A stretch of DNA of 64,000 nt from Planctomycetes bacterium ADurb.Bin069 (GTDB lineage Bacteria > Planctomycetota > UBA8108 > UBA8890 > UBA8898). Numbering within the stretch: the stretch's first letter is position 1; each line of letters begins with the position of its first letter. The notes under the pieces are model-generated. The model saw only the letters and a program-made list of their open reading frames with translations. It had not been told where the DNA came from and did not search any database. Both the position numbers and the translations under genes were made by a program. Positions 35,296 to 43,776 of the stretch are shown piece after piece. The stretch is from the NCBI GenBank assembly GCA_002070955.1, contig MWEK01000008.1:62001-126000 (forward strand). Reading direction: 5' to 3'.

Positions 35296-36426
35296 TCAGA
35301 ACTTGTCGAAGTAGATCCGCTCCTCGGGCAGGCCCTTGTCCTTGAGCACCCCGATCACCGCGTCGATCATGATCGGCGGGCCGCAGAGGTAGCATTCCTT
35401 GTCGGCCGCGTCGTTGATGATCCGGTCGACGACCAGGTGGATGAACTCCGTCTCGCCCTCCCACTCATCGCCGGGCTCCAGGCCCGAGAGCGAGGGGAAA
35501 TAGCGGAAGTTGCGGTGGCGCGCGGCCCGCGCCACGTTCTCCTTGTGCCAGTACAGGTCCCGGAGCGCCCGCTGGCCCACGAAGCAGTCCACCCGGCGCT
35601 GCGTGCCCTTGTCGAAGAGGTGCTCGACGATGGAGCGCACGGGCGCGACGCCCGAGCCGCCGCCCACGCAGATGATGGGGCGGTCCGAATCCTCGCGCAG
35701 GTAGAACTCGCCGTAGGGTCCCGTGATCGTCACGCGGTCGCCTTCCGCAAGGAGCGTGTGCACCCACGTCGTGCAGATTCCGTTGGGCACGAGGCGGATG
35801 ATCAGCTCGACAACGCCGGAGTCCTTCGGCATGGAGGCGATGGAATAGGCCCGGAAAACGGGCTCGAAAATCGGCGGGGTGAGCCTGAGCAGGTAATCCC
35901 GAGGCACGTTGAGCTGGCAGTACTGGCCCGGCTTGAAGGCGATCCGCGGGGGATCGAGCAGCTTCAGCCTGAGGAGCTTGGTGTCATGGCTAAGCACCTC
36001 CAGCTTCTCCACCAGGCACGCGAATTCCTGCACGGCCAGCAACTCCGCCGGAATGCGCAGATCCAGATCGTTCTTGACCTTGACCTGGCAGCTCAGGCGC
36101 ACGTTGCGCCGGACCTCGGCGCGCGTCAGATGCATGCGCTCGGTGGCGAGCGCCGAGCCCGCGCCCGCGCGCACCTCGACCTTGCAGTAGCCGCACGTCC
36201 CTTGGCCGCCGCAGGCGCTGGGGATGAAGATTTTCCGCTCGGCCAGGGCCATGAGCAGATTGGCGCCGCCCCGGCACTCGAAGCTCACCGCCGGATCATG
36301 GTTGATCTCGACTTTGCAGACGCCGTAGTCGGCAATGTACTTCTCGGCGATGATCAGGACTAGCGCGAGGAAGCCCGACAGCCCCCCCAGCACGGCCGCG
36401 CTCAGCAGCAGAAGCCCGACATCCAT
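35296..36426 (-). CDS. nqrF: Na+-translocating NADH:quinone reductase subunit F
   Basis: NqrF takes electrons from NADH through FAD to a 2Fe-2S centre and into the complex. The 376-aa protein has an N-terminal membrane anchor (about 4-27). A plant-type 2Fe-2S ferredoxin domain uses Cys72, Cys78, Cys81 ('SACGGQGTCGYC') and Cys113. The FAD motif is 'RAYSIAS' (192-198), the nucleotide loop 'CVGGGSGVAP' (253-262), and the end is 'CYLCGPPIMIDAV'. It is slightly shorter than typical NqrF (about 405 aa). The ATG at 36426 has an RBS (AGAGGG) overlapping the nqrE stop. Last gene of nqrABCDEF. Confidence 0.95.
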   Translation of the reverse strand: MDVGLLLLSAAVLGGLSGFLALVLIIAEKYIADYGVCKVEINHDPAVSFECRGGANLLMALAERKIFIPSACGGQGTCGYCKVEVRAGAGSALATERMHLTRAEVRRNVRLSCQVKVKNDLDLRIPAELLAVQEFACLVEKLEVLSHDTKLLRLKLLDPPRIAFKPGQYCQLNVPRDYLLRLTPPIFEPVFRAYSIASMPKDSGVVELIIRLVPNGICTTWVHTLLAEGDRVTITGPYGEFYLREDSDRPIICVGGGSGVAPVRSIVEHLFDKGTQRRVDCFVGQRALRDLYWHKENVARAARHRNFRYFPSLSGLEPGDEWEGETEFIHLVVDRIINDAADKECYLCGPPIMIDAVIGVLKDKGLPEERIYFDKF

Positions 36427-36434
36427 GGCGCCCT

Positions 36435-37025
36435 CTACCTGATGGCCACCATGCCGGCGAAACCCATGAACGCCATGGCCATGGTTCCCGCCACCACGAT
36501 GGTGATGCCCGGCCCCTCCAGCGCCGGCGGCACCTTGCTGAACCTGATTTTCTGGCGCAGGCCGGCGAGGGCCACCACCGCCACGAACCACCCCAATCCG
36601 CTGCCGGCCCCCCAAGCGACGGACTGCAGGAACCCGTAGCGCCAATTCACCATGAACAGGCACAGGCCCAAAATGGCGCAGTTGACGGTGATGAGGGGCA
36701 GGAAGATGCCCAGGTTGTCGTAGAGCGTCTGGCTCTTGCGCTCGATCACCATCTCCACGAACTGCACCAACCCCGCGATGAGCACGATGAAGACGATGAA
36801 CTGGAGGTACTCCAGGCCCAGGGGCACGAGCACCAGGTGGTAGACGGGCCAGCCGGCGGCCGCCGTGAGCACCGACACGAACGTCACCGCAGCGCCGAGG
36901 CCCAGGGCCGTCTGCGTCGTGTTGGAGACGGCGATGAAGGAGCACATCCCCAGAAAGTAAACCAGGAGGATGTTGTTGGTGAAAACCGCGGCGAAGAGGA
37001 TGACGAAGGGCGAGATTTCCGGCAT
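36435..37025 (-). CDS. nqrE: Na+-translocating NADH:quinone reductase subunit E
   Basis: The 196-aa subunit has six hydrophobic helices and the family start 'ISPFVILFAAVFTNNILLVYFLGMCSF'. Cys28 and Cys116 ('ITVNCAILG') occupy the positions of the Cys residues that, with those of NqrD, hold the intramembrane Fe-S centre. 'IERKSQTLYDNLGIFLPLITVNCA' is diagnostic for NqrE/RnfA. The start lies 1 bp after the nqrD stop. Confidence 0.95.
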   Translation of the reverse strand: MPEISPFVILFAAVFTNNILLVYFLGMCSFIAVSNTTQTALGLGAAVTFVSVLTAAAGWPVYHLVLVPLGLEYLQFIVFIVLIAGLVQFVEMVIERKSQTLYDNLGIFLPLITVNCAILGLCLFMVNWRYGFLQSVAWGAGSGLGWFVAVVALAGLRQKIRFSKVPPALEGPGITIVVAGTMAMAFMGFAGMVAIR

Positions 37026-37026
37026 G

Positions 37027-37710
37027 TCACTTCCCTCCCGGCCGCGCCTTCCCGGCCTGGGCGCGAAGCTGCAGGGCGCGGCACACCCAGATGACCACGG
37101 CGAGCCCGAAGAAACCCGCGGGCGCCATGACCATGATGTTCCACCGGGGCAGGCTCTCGGGAACCACCGCGACGCCGCACAGGCTGCCGAACCCGAGCAA
37201 CTCCCGGGGCAGCGAAACGAGGATCAGCACCAGGCTGTAGCCGCAGCCCGCGCCGATGCCGTCCACGAAGGCCAGCCAAGGCCGGTTCTTGGTGGCGAAG
37301 GCCTCCACGCGGCCCAGCACGATGCAGTTCGTGATGATGAGGCCGACGTAGGCGCCGATCTGCTCGCTCACCGCGAACATGTAGGCCGCGAGAAAGAGGT
37401 GCACGACGATGACGAAGCTCGCGATGATGAGCATCTGCACCAGGAGCCGCGTGCGCGGCGGCGTCGCGTCGCGGACCAGGGCGTACAGGCAGCTCGAGCA
37501 CGCCGTCACCAGCGTCACGGCGACGCACATGACCAGCGTGTTCGTCACCAGGTTCGTCACGGCCAGCGCCGAGCACACGCCCAGAATCTGCCTGAAGAGC
37601 GGGTTGTCGTCCCAGAACTGCGTCTTGAACGTGCGGTACTCCGGGCTGGCCTTGATCCGCAGCCCGAGCGGCATGGCCGGCGGCGCGATGTTGCGTGCGT
37701 GCTCGCTCAC
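37027..37710 (-). CDS. nqrD: Na+-translocating NADH:quinone reductase subunit D
   Basis: The 227-aa integral membrane subunit pairs with NqrE in an inverted topology and shares its Fe-S centre through Cys46 ('LGVCSALAVT') and Cys129 ('ITNCIVLGR'). 'NNPLFRQ'-type start ('DDNPLFRQILGVCSALAVT') and 'VEAFATKNRPWLAFVDGIGAGCGY' are family hallmarks. It starts 6 bp after nqrC. Confidence 0.95.
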   Translation of the reverse strand: MSEHARNIAPPAMPLGLRIKASPEYRTFKTQFWDDNPLFRQILGVCSALAVTNLVTNTLVMCVAVTLVTACSSCLYALVRDATPPRTRLLVQMLIIASFVIVVHLFLAAYMFAVSEQIGAYVGLIITNCIVLGRVEAFATKNRPWLAFVDGIGAGCGYSLVLILVSLPRELLGFGSLCGVAVVPESLPRWNIMVMAPAGFFGLAVVIWVCRALQLRAQAGKARPGGK

Positions 37711-37716
37711 GGCGCG

Positions 37717-38406
37717 TCACCTCTTCCCGATTCCGCGCCTCTCGGCCGCATCCAGGAAAGCCCCGATGTCTCGGACCAGAAACGCCTTGACGCTGTTGGT
37801 GGTCTCGGTGGCGCCCGTGATGGCGTCGACCTCGTTGAGCGCCTTGGGCTCCTTCCCCCGGGCGGTGAACTCGACGCCGACGGCCCCCCCGGCGTCCCTG
37901 ACGCGCTTACCCTTGAAGGCGTTGCGGAACCACTCCGCGTTGATCTCGTGCCCGAGCCCCGGGGTTTCCTCGTCCTTGTAAAAACTGATGCCGCGCACGG
38001 TCGCCAGGTCGGGCTCGAGGGCCAACACGCCCTCGATAGGGCCCCAGAACCCGACGCCCCCCACCCTGAAGGCGTAGCCGATCACCTTGCCGCGCGGCTC
38101 CGAGCCCCCGCCGGGAGCGTCGGTTTCCTCGTATCCTTCCCAGACGACGAGGGGCCGCCCGCCCGAGGCGCCGGCGTACTCGCGCTCCGCCACCACCGCG
38201 TCGAAGCGCGCGAGGATTTCTTCGCTGGACGCGTCGTCCCGAAGAACGTATCCCAGGGCGCGCATGATTTCGCGGCACATGGCGGCCTGCCGGTTGGCCT
38301 TGATCTTCGGGGCGGTGAGCTGGTTGACGAAGGAGAGGACGAGGCCGAAGGCGACCGCCACCCCCACCGTGTAGCACCAAACGTACACCGGGCCGCGCTT
38401 CTTCAT
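37717..38406 (-). CDS. nqrC: Na+-translocating NADH:quinone reductase subunit C
   Basis: The 229-aa subunit has one N-terminal transmembrane helix (about 7-28) and a periplasmic FMN-binding domain. The covalent FMN attachment site is Thr200 in 'DAITGATETTNSV', matching the (S/T)GAT motif flavinylated by ApbE. 'GFWGPIEGVLALEPD' and 'DEETPGLGHEI' are conserved in NqrC/RnfG. The ATG overlaps the nqrB stop by 4 nt. No apbE is present in the window. Confidence 0.95.
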   Translation of the reverse strand: MKKRGPVYVWCYTVGVAVAFGLVLSFVNQLTAPKIKANRQAAMCREIMRALGYVLRDDASSEEILARFDAVVAEREYAGASGGRPLVVWEGYEETDAPGGGSEPRGKVIGYAFRVGGVGFWGPIEGVLALEPDLATVRGISFYKDEETPGLGHEINAEWFRNAFKGKRVRDAGGAVGVEFTARGKEPKALNEVDAITGATETTNSVKAFLVRDIGAFLDAAERRGIGKR

Positions 38407-39494
38407 GCCGGGGCCCTCCGCGCGCGGTACCGGCGCCGTATCGCAAAGTGATCCAGGATCGGCGCCGCGGTGTTCATGAGCAGGATGGCGAACATCACCC
38501 CCTGGGGATAGCCGGAGTACATCCAGATCAGCACCGAGATCGCGCCGATGCCCAAGCCGTACAACCAGCGGGTCAGGGGGTGCCGGGGGCCCGACACCGG
38601 ATCGGTGGCCATGAAGACCGCGCCGAAGAGCAGCCCGCCGCCCAGCACTCCCATGGCGCCGCAGGGCCAGGCCGAGGGGGCCGCGTGGTGCCCGATCGCG
38701 GCGGTGACGAAGGCGCCGATGACCGTCGAGATCATGATCGAGAAGCTCGCGACGCGCGTCAAGGCGAGGATCAGTCCGGCGGCCACGATCCAGATGCGCA
38801 GGGTCTCTCCCACGCTGCCGGAAGCGAGCCCGAAGAGCAGATCCCCGAAGGGAACCGGACATTCCTGGAGGGTGGTCAAATGGGCCGGCGTGGCCGAAGT
38901 CACCGCATCGACGCCCGCGTCCCAGGCCGCGAACCCGCCCGCGGCGCCCGGGATCGGATTCGTCCACACGCCGCCCACCATGTGCCGGGGAAAGGAAATG
39001 TACACGAAACACCGCCCGACGAGGGCCGGGTTGAAAACGTTGTACCCCGTGCCGCCGAACACCTCCTTCCCGAACACGATGCCGAACACGATGCCCACGG
39101 CGCAGACCCAGAACGGCGTCGTGGGCGGGAGCGTCAGGGGAAAGAGCAGGCACGTCACGAAGGCGCCCTCGTTGAGGGTTTCCTTCCTGGCGCCCGCGAA
39201 GATCGCCTCGACGCCCACGCCGAAGATGTACGACACGGCGATGAGCGCGGCGACGCGCCACCCGAAGGCGTAAACGCCCCACGCGGCGCAGGGCAGAAGG
39301 CACAGGATCACGACGCTCATGAAGCGCTTCACGTCCATGTGCCCGCGCACGTGCGGGGCGCCGGCCGTCACGTCGCCCTTGCCGAAAAGAAAGGTGTCGA
39401 TGGCGTCCACCGCCGGGTGCACCGGCGACAGGCGGGGATTCTCCCGCGTGACGCGCAGCAGGTAATCCAGGATGCGGCGCAGCCTCCCGATCAT
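38403..39494 (-). CDS. nqrB: Na+-translocating NADH:quinone reductase subunit B
   Basis: The 363-aa, ten-helix subunit is related to RnfD and contributes to the Na+ channel. 'VSYIFGVGVEAIFAGARKETLNEGAFVTCLLFPLTLPP', 'GGTGYNVFNPALVGRCFVY' and 'MATDPVSGP' are strong NqrB signatures. The covalent FMN site is the 'DAVTSATP' segment (Thr202), with Ser in place of the usual Gly of SGAT. ATG 39494 overlaps the nqrA stop by 4 nt. Confidence 0.94.
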   Translation of the reverse strand: MIGRLRRILDYLLRVTRENPRLSPVHPAVDAIDTFLFGKGDVTAGAPHVRGHMDVKRFMSVVILCLLPCAAWGVYAFGWRVAALIAVSYIFGVGVEAIFAGARKETLNEGAFVTCLLFPLTLPPTTPFWVCAVGIVFGIVFGKEVFGGTGYNVFNPALVGRCFVYISFPRHMVGGVWTNPIPGAAGGFAAWDAGVDAVTSATPAHLTTLQECPVPFGDLLFGLASGSVGETLRIWIVAAGLILALTRVASFSIMISTVIGAFVTAAIGHHAAPSAWPCGAMGVLGGGLLFGAVFMATDPVSGPRHPLTRWLYGLGIGAISVLIWMYSGYPQGVMFAILLMNTAAPILDHFAIRRRYRARRAPA

Positions 39495-40828
39495 TGCGCC
39501 AGCTCCTCCCGCACGGCCCTCTTGCCGCGCGCCAGCTCCTCGTGGAGCGGCAGCTTGGAGGGACACACGTAGCTGCACAGACCGCACTCGATGCAGTCCA
39601 TGAGCGCCAGCGCTTCGGCCTCCTCGCCTTGGTCGATGCGCAGAAGCTTCATCAGGAGATCGGGCATGAGGCCGACCGGGCAGACATCCTCGCACCACCC
39701 GCAGTTGATGCAGGGCCGGAGTTCGCCGTGGAGGTTCGTGTCGCCGGCCAGGGGCCGCTTGAGAAACGCCGCCAGAAACGTCCTGCCGTAGGAGTCCTTG
39801 CGCGCCCCGGGCCGCATGAACTCCAGGAAGCGGCGCTCGCGGTCCTCAGGAAGCACGCTCACGCATTCCAGATCCCGCGTGACGGGGTGCTCCGGCGGGA
39901 CGGCGACGCCCGTCAGGAAGTTGCCCGCGACATACCGCACCTCGCGCCCGGGGGCGAGGCGGTCCGCGCACAACTCCCCCAGCGGCGTGCCGACGCGGGC
40001 GTCGACGATGGCCGGGCGCGCGAGCCCGGCGCCGCCCAGGCACAGGCGCACATTGATGAGGGCCGCGCCCTTGACGGCCGCGTCGTACGCCGCGAGCGCC
40101 GCGCGCCCGCTCACGCACACAACATCGGCGGCGCCGCCGGCGACCGCGCGCGCCAGCAGCTTCGGATGTTCCCCGGGGTAAACCTCGTCGATGGCGGCGA
40201 CGCGCGGCGCGCCGCCGCCGGCCAGCGCCGCGGCGAACGCGCGGTCCCGCCGCCCCACGGCGAAGCACAGCTCCTGCGCGCCGAGAGCCTTGGCGAGGAT
40301 GCGCCCGCCCGTAACCAGGTCGTTCTCCCGACCGGCATAGACGGCGCCCGCCCTGGGGAGGAGCGGCGCCGTGTGCACGCACACCGCGACGAGCACGCGC
40401 GCGAGCCCCGGCGCGATCATCCCGCCGGGAACCAACGCCGCGACCCCCGCGTGGGTGAGCGCCTCGGCCAGCGCTTCCGGCGCGGCCGCGGTCCACTCGC
40501 AGCGCGTATCGGGCGCCGGGGGGGCGGCCTTGCCGGCGTCCCGCTCGATGACGATGGCCCAGGGCTGCTTGGCGCGCGCCTTCACAGCGAGCTCGCGCAC
40601 AACGCCGTCGATCGGGGCGTGCACCGGGCTTCCCACCTGCGCCGGCGGGGTGCCGATCACCTGTCCCGCGGCAACCGCGTCCCCCGGCGACACGACCGGC
40701 AAGGCGGCGTAGCCCTCGCCCTGGGCAAGGGGAACCACCACGCGGCCGCCGACGCGATGCGCCGCGACCGTCCCCTCCGGAGTGCCCTCGAAGAGGCGGA
40801 ACCTATAGCCGCCTTTCAACGCCGCCAC
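39491..40828 (-). CDS. nqrA: NqrA with two RnfC-type 4Fe-4S motifs
   Basis: First gene of the nqr operon. The 445-aa length fits NqrA, and the N-terminal part has the barrel-sandwich segment 'VSPGDAVAAGQVIG...SPVHAPIDGVVREL' common to NqrA and RnfC. Unlike textbook NqrA, the C-terminus carries two full CxxCxxCxxxCP sets, Cys373/376/379/383 and Cys412/415/418/422. Typical NqrA keeps only a degenerate remnant of the second. The other five subunits, including NqrF, are Nqr-type, and no RnfB is present. The protein therefore looks intermediate between RnfC and NqrA. The start is GTG at 40828 with a weak ribosome-binding site. Confidence 0.9.
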   Translation of the reverse strand: MAALKGGYRFRLFEGTPEGTVAAHRVGGRVVVPLAQGEGYAALPVVSPGDAVAAGQVIGTPPAQVGSPVHAPIDGVVRELAVKARAKQPWAIVIERDAGKAAPPAPDTRCEWTAAAPEALAEALTHAGVAALVPGGMIAPGLARVLVAVCVHTAPLLPRAGAVYAGRENDLVTGGRILAKALGAQELCFAVGRRDRAFAAALAGGGAPRVAAIDEVYPGEHPKLLARAVAGGAADVVCVSGRAALAAYDAAVKGAALINVRLCLGGAGLARPAIVDARVGTPLGELCADRLAPGREVRYVAGNFLTGVAVPPEHPVTRDLECVSVLPEDRERRFLEFMRPGARKDSYGRTFLAAFLKRPLAGDTNLHGELRPCINCGWCEDVCPVGLMPDLLMKLLRIDQGEEAEALALMDCIECGLCSYVCPSKLPLHEELARGKRAVREELAQ

Positions 40829-40930
40829 TTATCCGTTACCTGCCATGCGCTCCTGACCCCGCGGAAGGGCGTCGAACGTGACGTGGAAACCAACGATACC
40901 ACCCGCCGGGCTGAACGACAAGGCGGGGCT

Positions 40931-42310
40931 TCAGCGCGGGCCGCCGGCCGCGCGGCGGGCGAATTCGATCCCGGCGTCGAGGGTCGTGAACACGCCGTCA
41001 AGCTGGGCTTCGTAGCACACCCTCAGAAGGGCGCCGAGGGCGGGTCCCGGCGTCAAACCCAGGGCGAGGAGGTGGCGGCCCATGACGATGGGCCGCGGCG
41101 CCGCGTCCTTCACCGCGAGCGCCTCCGCGCGGGCCAGGAGCCACGCGCCCGCCGCGGACTCCGGCCGCGGCAGGCCCGGCCGCCCCTGCATGTCGGCCTC
41201 CGCGACGCGCACCAGCCGGTCGATCCGTCCCACGGCGCGGGCGAGGCGGCGGATCGCGCCATCGCCGGCTCCCGCCTCGTGATACTGCTGCGGCCGCAGG
41301 TGGTGCGTCACGAGAGCGACGACCGCGTCGATCAAGTCTTCCCGGTTGGTCATGCGGCCGAGAAACGCGCGGGTGGGCGCCGCGCCCGCCGCCTCGTGGC
41401 CCGGCGAGCGGATGCGCCCCCCCTCCCGGACCGTCGTGGCGGGCTTTCCGAAATCGTGGCACAGGACGGCGAGGCCGACGATCAGGTCCTCGCGCGCGTC
41501 GGCCGTCCGGCCCCGGGCGAAGGCATCCATGCAGTGGAGCGTGTGCACCCACACCTCGCCCTCCGGGTGCCAGTCGGGCTCCTGTTCGCAGCCGATGAGA
41601 GCTTCGAGCTCGGGGTAGTGGCGGACCCACCCGCAGTCCCGCAGGAAAGCGAGCCCGCGCGAGATCGCGACGCCCAAGAGGATCAGCTTCCTCCACTCAT
41701 CGAAAACCCGCTCGCGGGCGAGTCCTTCGGGTTCGATGGAGCGGCAGAGCGCGACGGTTTCCGGCGCGACGGCGCATTCCAAGCGCGCCGCGAACTGCAT
41801 GCCCCGCAGGACCCTGAGCGGGTCCTCGGAGAAATGGTCCGAGGTGTGGCGCAGCATCCGCGTCGCGAGATCCCGCACGCCGCCGAAGGGATCGATGAGC
41901 TCCCCCGTCAGGGGATCGAAGGCCATGGCGTTGATCGTGAAGTCGCGCCGCGCGGCCGCCTCCGCCGGGGAGAGGTTCGGATCGGACCGGATCTCGAAGC
42001 CCCGGTGCCCGAGACCGGCCTTCGACTCGCGGCGCGGGAGCGACACATCCACCGGCACGCCGTGGAGCTTGATGACGCCGAACGCGGCGCCCACAAGATC
42101 GGTGCGGAACCGCGCCTCCAGGATTTGCAGCAGCCGTTCCGGGGCGACGCCGTAGACCTCGATGTCGACTTCCTCGGCCGGGCGGCCGAGGAGCGCATCC
42201 CGAACGCAGCCGCCGACGAGCAGCGCCCGCCCGCCGGGCTCCCCGCCCACGAGCTCGCAAACGGCGCGCACGGCCTCGCGGACCTTGGAATCCGGGATTT
42301 CGACATCCAT
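40931..42310 (-). CDS. cca: CCA-adding-type tRNA nucleotidyltransferase / poly(A) polymerase family with HD domain
   Basis: The 459-aa protein has the class II nucleotidyltransferase core: 'LLVGGCVRDALLG' (30-42), the metal-binding 'VDIEVYG' (DxE, about 48-54), 'RRDFTINAMAFDP' and 'EDPLRVLRGMQFAARL'. A central HD phosphohydrolase domain ('WVHTLHCMDAF', 'LAVLCHDFGKP', 'GHEAAG') is fused, as in multifunctional bacterial Cca. The enzyme would add or repair the 3' CCA of tRNAs. The tRNA-Gly here encodes CCA, so a repair role is plausible. Poly(A) polymerase activity is the alternative. There is no ribosome-binding site, and a -10 box ends 10 bp before the ATG. Confidence 0.88.
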   Translation of the reverse strand: MDVEIPDSKVREAVRAVCELVGGEPGGRALLVGGCVRDALLGRPAEEVDIEVYGVAPERLLQILEARFRTDLVGAAFGVIKLHGVPVDVSLPRRESKAGLGHRGFEIRSDPNLSPAEAAARRDFTINAMAFDPLTGELIDPFGGVRDLATRMLRHTSDHFSEDPLRVLRGMQFAARLECAVAPETVALCRSIEPEGLARERVFDEWRKLILLGVAISRGLAFLRDCGWVRHYPELEALIGCEQEPDWHPEGEVWVHTLHCMDAFARGRTADAREDLIVGLAVLCHDFGKPATTVREGGRIRSPGHEAAGAAPTRAFLGRMTNREDLIDAVVALVTHHLRPQQYHEAGAGDGAIRRLARAVGRIDRLVRVAEADMQGRPGLPRPESAAGAWLLARAEALAVKDAAPRPIVMGRHLLALGLTPGPALGALLRVCYEAQLDGVFTTLDAGIEFARRAAGGPR

Positions 42311-42319
42311 GCGGAAGGA

Positions 42320-42325
42320 ATTGTA
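42320..42325 (-). promoter_or_regulatory. -10 box suggesting a near-leaderless cca transcript
   Basis: TACAAT on the minus strand ends 10 bp upstream of the ATG at 42310, with no good -35 box and no Shine-Dalgarno sequence. Confidence 0.4.
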
Positions 42326-42474
42326 ACACCGCCGCGCCGCGGGCTGAAAGCGGCGGCGCCGCTCCGGCGAGCCGTCCGCGGCGGTGGACTAGGAACCGCG
42401 CGCGGCATCCCTCTGCGCGCGCCCGAGGGCGACCGGCGCCGCGGCGGCGAGCCGATCGGAAGGCTACCCGACGG

Positions 42475-43776
42475 CTAAGTCCACAGGAATTTCCCCGGCA
42501 CCGGCACGGGGTAGAGACCGTCCGGACCCGGCTTCACGGGCGGATCGATGGTGAAGTCGCAGGGGCCGGTGCGCGGTTCGTAGGCGAAGTCCGAGCCGCG
42601 CGCCTCCTCCCAACCGATCTTCCGGCCCGTGTAGCACGCCATCTGCCCCATGATCGCCACCATGGTGCTGCGCGCCATGTGCAAGCCGTCGTTGATGGGC
42701 CGGCCGCCGCGGATGGCGCCGAGGAACGCGATCTGTTCCTGCTGGTGGCCGCTGGGATTGGAGCCCTCGAACCGCCACGGCTGCTCGCCCTCGATCCGCC
42801 CCTCGTAGGCCCGGCCCTTGGTCCCGAAGATCTTCATCTCGTACTCGTTGTGACAGCCGTGTTGCGTGCGCACGACGCCGTACATCCGCGCCCCGCCCTT
42901 GTACTCGTAGACCACGGCCTGGTGATCGAAGACGTTGCCGTACTCGTGGCCGATGGACGCCGACCGCCCGCCCATGCCGTGGCACGTGATGGGCGGCTCC
43001 TCCCCCATGGCCCACTGCGCCGTGTCGATGGGGTGCACGAGGGACTGCGGCACGTCGTCGCCGGACAAATAGTTGAAGTGGTACCAGGTCTTGTACTGCC
43101 ACTCCATCTCGCTCCAGGCGGGATCCCGGGCGCAGATGCGGTAGGGCGGCCGCAGGAAGCTGACTTCCATGGCGACGATCTCTCCGATGGCGCCGTCCAG
43201 GACGCGCATGACGGTCTCCCGGATCCGCGCCTCGTGGCGCCGGTGAAGCCCGGAGACGACGCAGAGCTTCTTCTCGGCGGCCTGCTCGCACGCCGCCGTG
43301 ACGATCCGCACGCCCGGCGCATCGATGGCGTGCGGCTTCTCGACGAAGACGTGCTTTCCCGCCTCGATGCCCCGCCGCGTGTACTCGGGGTGGAACCGCG
43401 TCGCGCAGGCGATCAGCACGGCATCGACGTCGCTGGCGAAGAGGCGCTCGGCGCCGCCGAAGCCCGTGAACACGTGGTCCTTGTCCACCGCGACCTGATC
43501 GCCCTTCTTGGCCTTGATCGCCTCCAGGGAATGCCGCGCGTGGTCGGCGAAGATATCCGCGACGGCGACCAGCCGCGCGCCGCGGTCGGCCCGGAGGGCA
43601 TCGAGCGCGGCCCCCGTGCCGCGGTCGCCGCAGCCGATGAGCCCCAGCCTGATCGTGTCGTCGCCGGCGGCGTGAACGTTCGCCACGCCCAGGGCGGGCA
43701 GCGCCGCCGCGGTGGTTCGTAAGAACGCGCGCCGGGAAACCGCCCCGGGCGCCGCTCCTTTTCTTTCGTTCTTCAT
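42475..43776 (-). CDS. TAT-exported Gfo/Idh/MocA-family oxidoreductase (second of pair)
   Basis: The 433-aa protein has a twin-arginine signal 'SRRAFLRTTAAALPALG' (about 14-30). The Rossmann motif is 'GLIGCGDRGTG' and the dinucleotide-domain signature is 'GKHVFVEKPHAID', whose EKP Lys is the usual catalytic lysine. The C-terminal alpha/beta domain includes 'WYHFNYLSGDDVPQSLVHPIDTAQWAMGEEPP', typical of planctomycete members. Such enzymes oxidise or reduce sugars and may hydrolyse glycosides through a keto intermediate. The ATG at 43776 overlaps the stop of the upstream paralogue by 4 nt, so the two are coupled. Confidence 0.9.
   Translation of the reverse strand: MKNERKGAAPGAVSRRAFLRTTAAALPALGVANVHAAGDDTIRLGLIGCGDRGTGAALDALRADRGARLVAVADIFADHARHSLEAIKAKKGDQVAVDKDHVFTGFGGAERLFASDVDAVLIACATRFHPEYTRRGIEAGKHVFVEKPHAIDAPGVRIVTAACEQAAEKKLCVVSGLHRRHEARIRETVMRVLDGAIGEIVAMEVSFLRPPYRICARDPAWSEMEWQYKTWYHFNYLSGDDVPQSLVHPIDTAQWAMGEEPPITCHGMGGRSASIGHEYGNVFDHQAVVYEYKGGARMYGVVRTQHGCHNEYEMKIFGTKGRAYEGRIEGEQPWRFEGSNPSGHQQEQIAFLGAIRGGRPINDGLHMARSTMVAIMGQMACYTGRKIGWEEARGSDFAYEPRTGPCDFTIDPPVKPGPDGLYPVPVPGKFLWT

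Follow-up and report, generated by a model that had tools for sequence, protein, structure and literature searches.

NqrA is usually described as a subunit that has neither a cofactor nor an assigned function. A 2025 review likewise gives it no redox cofactor. In the RNF complex, two clusters of RnfC bridge the riboflavin of RnfD to FMN and NAD+ (PMC12174285), and one published account of how Nqr originated holds that the loss of RnfB made RnfC non-functional, so that its NAD and FMN sites and its clusters were lost before NqrF was recruited (PMC4014512). The Tol2-type Rnf2 has a large RnfB with NAD sites and an RnfC without the NADH-dehydrogenase and ligand-binding domains (PMC5109826). For the anammox bacterium 'Ca. 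Jettenia ecosi', a Na-NQR with fused NqrD-E has been described, along with a cited report of the complex in Kuenenia proteomics, and the portions of that paper available to us do not mention clusters on NqrA (PMC6828613). We found no published description of clusters on NqrA, and no biochemistry of any such cluster-bearing (Fe-S type) NqrA, in the open-licence literature.

The window, by which we mean the whole 64,000-nucleotide stretch of DNA that was analysed, contains a complete and compact nqrABCDEF operon, with nqrA first and the gene order A-B-C-D-E-F, that extends down to position 35296 (Table 1). The initial annotation had called an NqrA with two sets of cluster cysteines in an operon that has NqrF and no RnfB. 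Both calls held: the two CxxCxxCxxxCP sets are found at exactly those residues in the translated ORF, and the lack of RnfB was borne out by the gene set and by the genome-wide search described below. Judged from their motifs, NqrB through NqrF appear to be functional; the 2Fe-2S motif of NqrF is present together with the RAYS and GGGSGVAP motifs, and NqrB has V93 at the position of the V. cholerae quinone contact G141. A 994-aa open frame (window 39494-42478, + strand) lies antisense to nqrA, and we regard it as a shadow ORF of high-GC DNA and not as a gene.

Table 1. Features of the nqr operon (positions are those of the window).
Feature	Position	Strand	Description
nqrA	39491..40828	-	445 aa, GTG start, stop included; Fe-S type NqrA; RnfC_N barrel, degenerate FMN/NAD domain, C-terminal 2x[4Fe-4S] ferredoxin-like domain
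first cluster motif of NqrA	39677..39712	-	Cys373/376/379/383; CINCGWCEDVCP; invariant in 58 homologues
second cluster motif of NqrA	39560..39595	-	Cys412/415/418/422; CIECGLCSYVCP; invariant in 58 homologues
nqrB	38403..39494	-	363 aa; overlaps nqrA end; Nqr-type N-terminal extension; TSAT flavinylation motif
nqrC	37717..38406	-	229 aa; FMN_bind domain; TGAT flavinylation motif
nqrD	37027..37710	-	227 aa; cysteines in expected regions
nqrE	36435..37025	-	196 aa; cysteines in expected regions
nqrF	35296..36426	-	376 aa; membrane anchor, 2Fe-2S, FAD and NAD domains

Profile searches place the window protein between the NqrA and RnfC families. The Pfam families RnfC_N and 4Fe-4S dicluster match it above their cut-offs, the match to NQRA_SLBB is weak and slightly below the cut-off, and the FMN family Complex1_51K has no Pfam match in the protein. 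TIGR01945 (rnfC) scores 148 bits and the best NqrA model 140, both well below cut-off, and the NCBIfam nqrA equivalog TIGR01936 reaches 93 bits against a cut-off of 321. An AlphaFold2 model of the protein (mean pLDDT 93.2) can be fitted over its full length to RnfC with a TM of 0.80-0.82 and to V. cholerae NqrA with a TM of 0.79. Neither the FMN loop of RnfC (GxGGAxFPT) nor the NAD motif (ECEP) is present. In an alignment of 58 diverse homologues, 23-38% identical to the window protein, all eight cysteines are invariant, and only 14 columns – these eight among them – are invariant at all. This invariance and the fold match together exclude a chance origin of the motifs. It would also be hard to explain if the clusters, whose assembly we infer from the motifs, were unused; because the eight cysteines remain fixed across many phyla (58 sequences) although other positions have drifted so far, the predicted clusters are under selection.

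The source genome is a 4.55-Mb Planctomycetota MAG that is 88.5% complete. A search with PF04060 found no RnfB in this assembly, and a second NqrA/RnfC homologue was also not found in the 88.5% that it represents. The sole PF04060 match is an Fe-S-linked sensor histidine kinase (G000:C12 near 51184; L034:301-2361), which carries ferredoxin, hydrogenase-like and PF04060 Fe-S parts. The genus-mate G001 has the same NqrA, cut by a contig end, and a similar kinase-sized PF04060 match. MenD scores over cut-off in both genomes, and menaquinone is therefore likely made.

Fe-S type NqrA is a class spread over many phyla and no single curiosity. We scanned bacterial and archaeal genomes, one per species, and kept the best 80 loci. 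Both Cys motifs are present in all 80, a count that shows the breadth of the class and not the rarity of other types, because the scan patterns were built on these motifs. Twelve named phyla are represented among the 80 loci: Planctomycetota, Thermodesulfobacteriota, Omnitrophota, Bipolaricaulota, Eiseniibacteriota, Myxococcota, Fraseribacteriota, Latescibacterota, Caldifarciminota, Spirochaetota, Pseudomonadota and Verrucomicrobiota. Further eight-cysteine NqrA proteins beside nqrF, for which the initial annotation had proposed a search, are common, as a whole nqrA-F with an NqrF above 150 bits is present in 46 of the best 80 loci; rnfB is present in none of these 46. Planctomycetota hold both types: a wide score gap sets nine genomes apart as Fe-S type, and others have a cluster-less NqrA. 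Fe-S NqrA and RnfC are distinct, since in three genomes (G053, G056 and G058) the Fe-S NqrA coexists with RnfB and a separate, true RnfC that has the FMN loop. The first of these genomes has an orphan Fe-S NqrA (L040:1622-2905) that is N-terminally truncated and keeps all eight cysteines; NqrB was undetected on its 7.4-kb contig. The class includes the cultured Desulfocicer vacuolatum DSM 3385 (L139), in which the Fe-S type NqrA is accompanied by nqrB-F. Of the 58 Fe-S sequences, 57 are hit at E <1e-30 by the NCBIfam model NF003761, which is named for the NqrA subunit; the Fe-S sequences are therefore probably already in databases under the NqrA name.

We took advantage of two trees to place the Fe-S type, both rooted on RNF: one from concatenated NqrB, NqrD and NqrE (RnfD, RnfE and RnfA; 748 columns), and one from NqrA and RnfC with the cluster (Cys) columns removed. 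Sequences of V. cholerae, A. woodii and A. vinelandii were added from PDB alignments; V. cholerae falls inside the cluster-less clade, and the RNFs of A. woodii and A. vinelandii fall in the outgroup. In the first tree, the cluster-less Nqr complexes form one clade (100/98) nested in a basal grade of Fe-S complexes, with the Fe-S complexes of Desulfobacterota as its sister, and the second tree agrees in having the Fe-S grade basal and the cluster-less type nested. At the split between RNF and Nqr, the window NqrB, NqrD and NqrE group with Nqr, as does the window protein, which both trees place there with full support. The trees and an AU test reject a single derived clade of Fe-S complexes as well as repeated acquisition of the clusters: the Fe-S group stands on one side of a branch in 0 of 200 bootstrap trees, and the AU test against a single Fe-S clade gave a delta lnL of 160.6 (p 3e-49). 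The initial annotation had offered 'ancestral-type' and 'hybrid' Nqr as possibilities. The former is upheld, as the Fe-S type is a paraphyletic basal grade within which the cluster-less type is nested; the latter is not, because the NqrA and NqrB/D/E trees place the Fe-S type alike and give no sign of gene mixing. An RnfC-Nqr chimera is not supported either, the two trees agreeing on all three groups. The suggested NqrA/RnfC phylogeny thus put the protein outside RnfC, with no rnfB found elsewhere in the genome, and no characterised NqrA with clusters came to light.

Because the Fe-S grade is basal and the cluster-less clade nested, the cluster-bearing NqrA is the original one of all Nqr and its loss of clusters a single late event. 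It is strongly supported by these trees that Nqr arose with a cluster-bearing NqrA, and that the clusters were lost once, late, in the lineage of V. cholerae and its relatives. The FMN loop decays along the grade, from GMGGAxFPT in RNF through forms such as ALGKSGLPT in Fe-S NqrA to SLRTRPFSK in canonical NqrA, and the NAD motif decays likewise, from NAxECEPY through, for example, NAVETEPY to IDTNPLA; so NADH entry moved to NqrF and NAD+ output was lost first, and the clusters last. The order that we propose – RnfB replaced by NqrF, FMN/NAD decay, cluster loss – differs from that of PMC4014512.

We believe, with a probability of roughly 0.55, that the operon encodes a Na+-NQR-type NADH dehydrogenase of ancestral form, with a second, reversible electron port through the predicted NqrA clusters. 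Electrons would pass from NADH to the FAD and 2Fe-2S of NqrF, to a 2Fe-2S between NqrD and NqrE, to the FMN of NqrC, and on to NqrB with its FMN and riboflavin, while Na+ is pumped outward. The NqrB riboflavin would then have two exits: menaquinone at the rim of NqrB, and the two predicted [4Fe-4S] clusters of NqrA, which are placed where RnfC accepts electrons from the RnfD riboflavin. The first half of the RNF path from riboflavin to NAD+ appears to be kept in Fe-S NqrA, and its end is gone. Because the FMN/NAD site of NqrA is gone, the far cluster would most likely exchange electrons with a small cytosolic carrier, either ferredoxin or flavodoxin, and the port may be reversible and link the ferredoxin pool to quinone. 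The initial annotation had raised an extra path to or from ferredoxin, and we find this plausible. Genes for 2-oxoacid:ferredoxin oxidoreductase (POR) are present in 9 of 9 genomes tested; in the neighbourhoods of the loci we found no ferredoxin gene conserved beside the Fe-S nqr operons, and a flavodoxin-like gene lies near the operon in some Desulfobacterota loci only. A wider proposal, which we offer tentatively and as somewhat doubtful, is that Fe-S Nqr could be a third kind of Rnf/Nqr pump, in which the NqrB riboflavin is a branch point where electrons diverge to, or converge from, quinone and the NqrA clusters. One complex would thereby couple the Na+ gradient to NADH, menaquinone and ferredoxin, the textbook Nqr being a simplified descendant.

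The quinone side of NqrB is partly conserved. Fe-S-type NqrB keeps the Nqr-type N-terminal helices and all riboflavin contacts, with a median of 42 residues before the PH motif (46 in canonical NqrB and 12 in RNF). G140 is kept in 84 of 85 Fe-S-type sequences and F159 in 57 of 85. At G141, Gly is found in 41 of 85, as against 12 of 12 canonical sequences, and the window has Val; because in the V. cholerae structure a residue other than Gly at this position would sterically block quinone (PMC10643135), some members of the class, among them the window complex, must have a different quinone site. Genes for a polyprenyl diphosphate synthase (right after nqrF), MenA and MenG-like proteins adjoin many Fe-S nqr operons, and these menaquinone tail genes tie the complex to quinone. 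MenD or MqnA/D was identified in 30 of the 76 Fe-S genomes and in 25 of 27 canonical-Nqr genomes (Fisher p 9e-7), and in 27 of 53 when Fe-S genomes of at least 3 Mb are considered (p 2e-4), a census that is confounded by MAG gaps and completeness and by shared ancestry and serves as a hint only. Given the 30 of 76, quinone may not always be the acceptor of Fe-S Nqr. The idea that there is no quinone at all is weakened by the flanking tail genes and by UbiA-family genes, which are present even in MenD/Mqn-negative Fe-S genomes. Four such genomes, in which MenD and MqnA/D were not found, are G387, G402, G403 and G409 (L195, L106, L122 and L095); uptake of a quinone precursor, another route, or gaps could explain the pattern, and L095 has MenA-like and polyprenyl synthase genes next to nqr.

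These observations can be read in other ways. The NqrA clusters might be the main or only exit, in which case the complex would be an NADH:ferredoxin (or NADH:flavodoxin) oxidoreductase that uses or makes a Na+ gradient and for which quinone is not the acceptor. The bulky residues that replace G141 in about half of the Fe-S type, with the steric block expected of them, speak for this, as do the many Fe-S genomes without MenD and MqnA/D, which include the 99%-complete G387 and the single-chromosome records G402, G403 and G404. We nevertheless consider it unlikely, in that the N-terminal quinone-site helices and G140 are kept, tail genes flank many operons, UbiA-family genes persist in MenD/Mqn-negative genomes, and the source genome has MenD. 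Also improbable, in our judgment, is a structural or redox-buffering role, with the clusters as remnants that keep the C-terminal domain of NqrA together without net electron flow. Canonical NqrA does work with the same fold and no cofactor, and the loss of the FMN/NAD partner site leaves no known acceptor, but the eight cysteines are strictly invariant over deep divergence, even in an N-terminally shortened family (f47) and in the truncated NqrA of G053, and two clusters at full RnfC spacing exceed the needs of a fold. Taken together, the kept quinone-side features, the tail genes and the cysteine invariance favour two exits over either of these readings.

That the locus is an ordinary RNF, with RnfB missing or elsewhere and the window protein an RnfC, would fit the slightly higher score of TIGR01945, although both scores are below cut-off. 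NqrF is present, however, and the PF04060 search, the lost FMN and NAD motifs, the fully supported position in both trees and the separate true RnfC in three genomes all stand against it; we reject this reading as very improbable.

Among the relatives, several operons vary from this plan. Family f47 (L201:4168-10224 and L202:4121-10206) has a short Fe-S NqrA of about 350 aa, a fused NqrD-E and a long NqrF. In four Fe-S nqr operons (L080:14384-17846, L111:7948-11371, L112:6224-9666 and L154:4639-6921), NqrF consists of the anchor and 2Fe-2S only and is followed by a NuoF/HydB-type FMN/4Fe-4S subunit; the reduced NqrF of L080 and L111 also carries a fused NuoE/HydC-like domain, and the subunit is followed in turn by a NuoG/HydA-like N-terminal ferredoxin protein in L111 and L112. 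A Bfu-like (electron-bifurcating type) NADH module appears to replace the NqrF FAD domain in all four; the parts of the Bfu family paper at hand name Mbh- and Nuo-type membrane Bfu complexes only (PMC9304861). The deepest Nqr-side branch, from Fraserbacteria (L091:9983-16740), has an Fe-S NqrA and NqrBCDE with no NqrF and no NADH domain, and in place of NqrF there are a 2Fe-2S protein with an RnfB-type PF04060 motif and a second 2Fe-2S membrane protein. Similar partner proteins accompany Fe-S NqrA and NqrB in L087, L089, L090 and L107, where NqrC, NqrD and NqrE were undetected. A Rieske-like gene lies upstream in L087, and homologues are near L089, L090 and L091.

These sequences would explain the existence of NqrA, as the cluster-bearing link between an RNF forerunner and the textbook Nqr. 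They also reveal an anaerobic energy pump of wide distribution, and the identity of its electron acceptor needs re-examination, in sulfate reducers and probably anammox bacteria among others. The apparent presence of the Fe-S type in anammox bacteria and in cultured sulfate reducers makes it experimentally accessible.

Compared with the Na+-NQR of V. cholerae, the window operon has the same six subunits and gene order, an NqrF with FAD, NAD and 2Fe-2S, an Nqr-type NqrB N terminus, the riboflavin contacts and the NqrA fold. It differs in that the NqrA of V. cholerae lacks both a cofactor and the cluster cysteines, that NqrB has G141 there and Val here, and that the V. cholerae complex sits in the nested cluster-less clade. 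With RnfC of A. woodii, C. tetanomorphum and A. vinelandii, the window protein shares the RnfC_N barrel and two CxxCxxCxxxCP sets in the same place, as well as the close fit noted above; unlike RNF, it is without the FMN loop and the ECEP motif, RnfB is absent, and NADH would enter via NqrF. Rnf2 of Desulfobacula toluolica Tol2 (PMC5109826), compared by its description, is alike in that an RnfC-like subunit is proposed to have lost NAD+ chemistry and to depend on a different electron partner, but it has a large RnfB where the window has NqrF and the source genome no RnfB. The Planctomycetota family f47 combines an Fe-S NqrA operon with a fused NqrD-E, matching the anammox Na-NQR as far as the available portions of PMC6828613 describe it, and from this match f47 probably represents anammox bacteria; unlike the window protein, its NqrA lacks the N-terminal barrel. 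By operon, NqrF and phylogeny, the Fe-S type belongs to Nqr, and its subunit A is neither the cluster-less NqrA nor RnfC.
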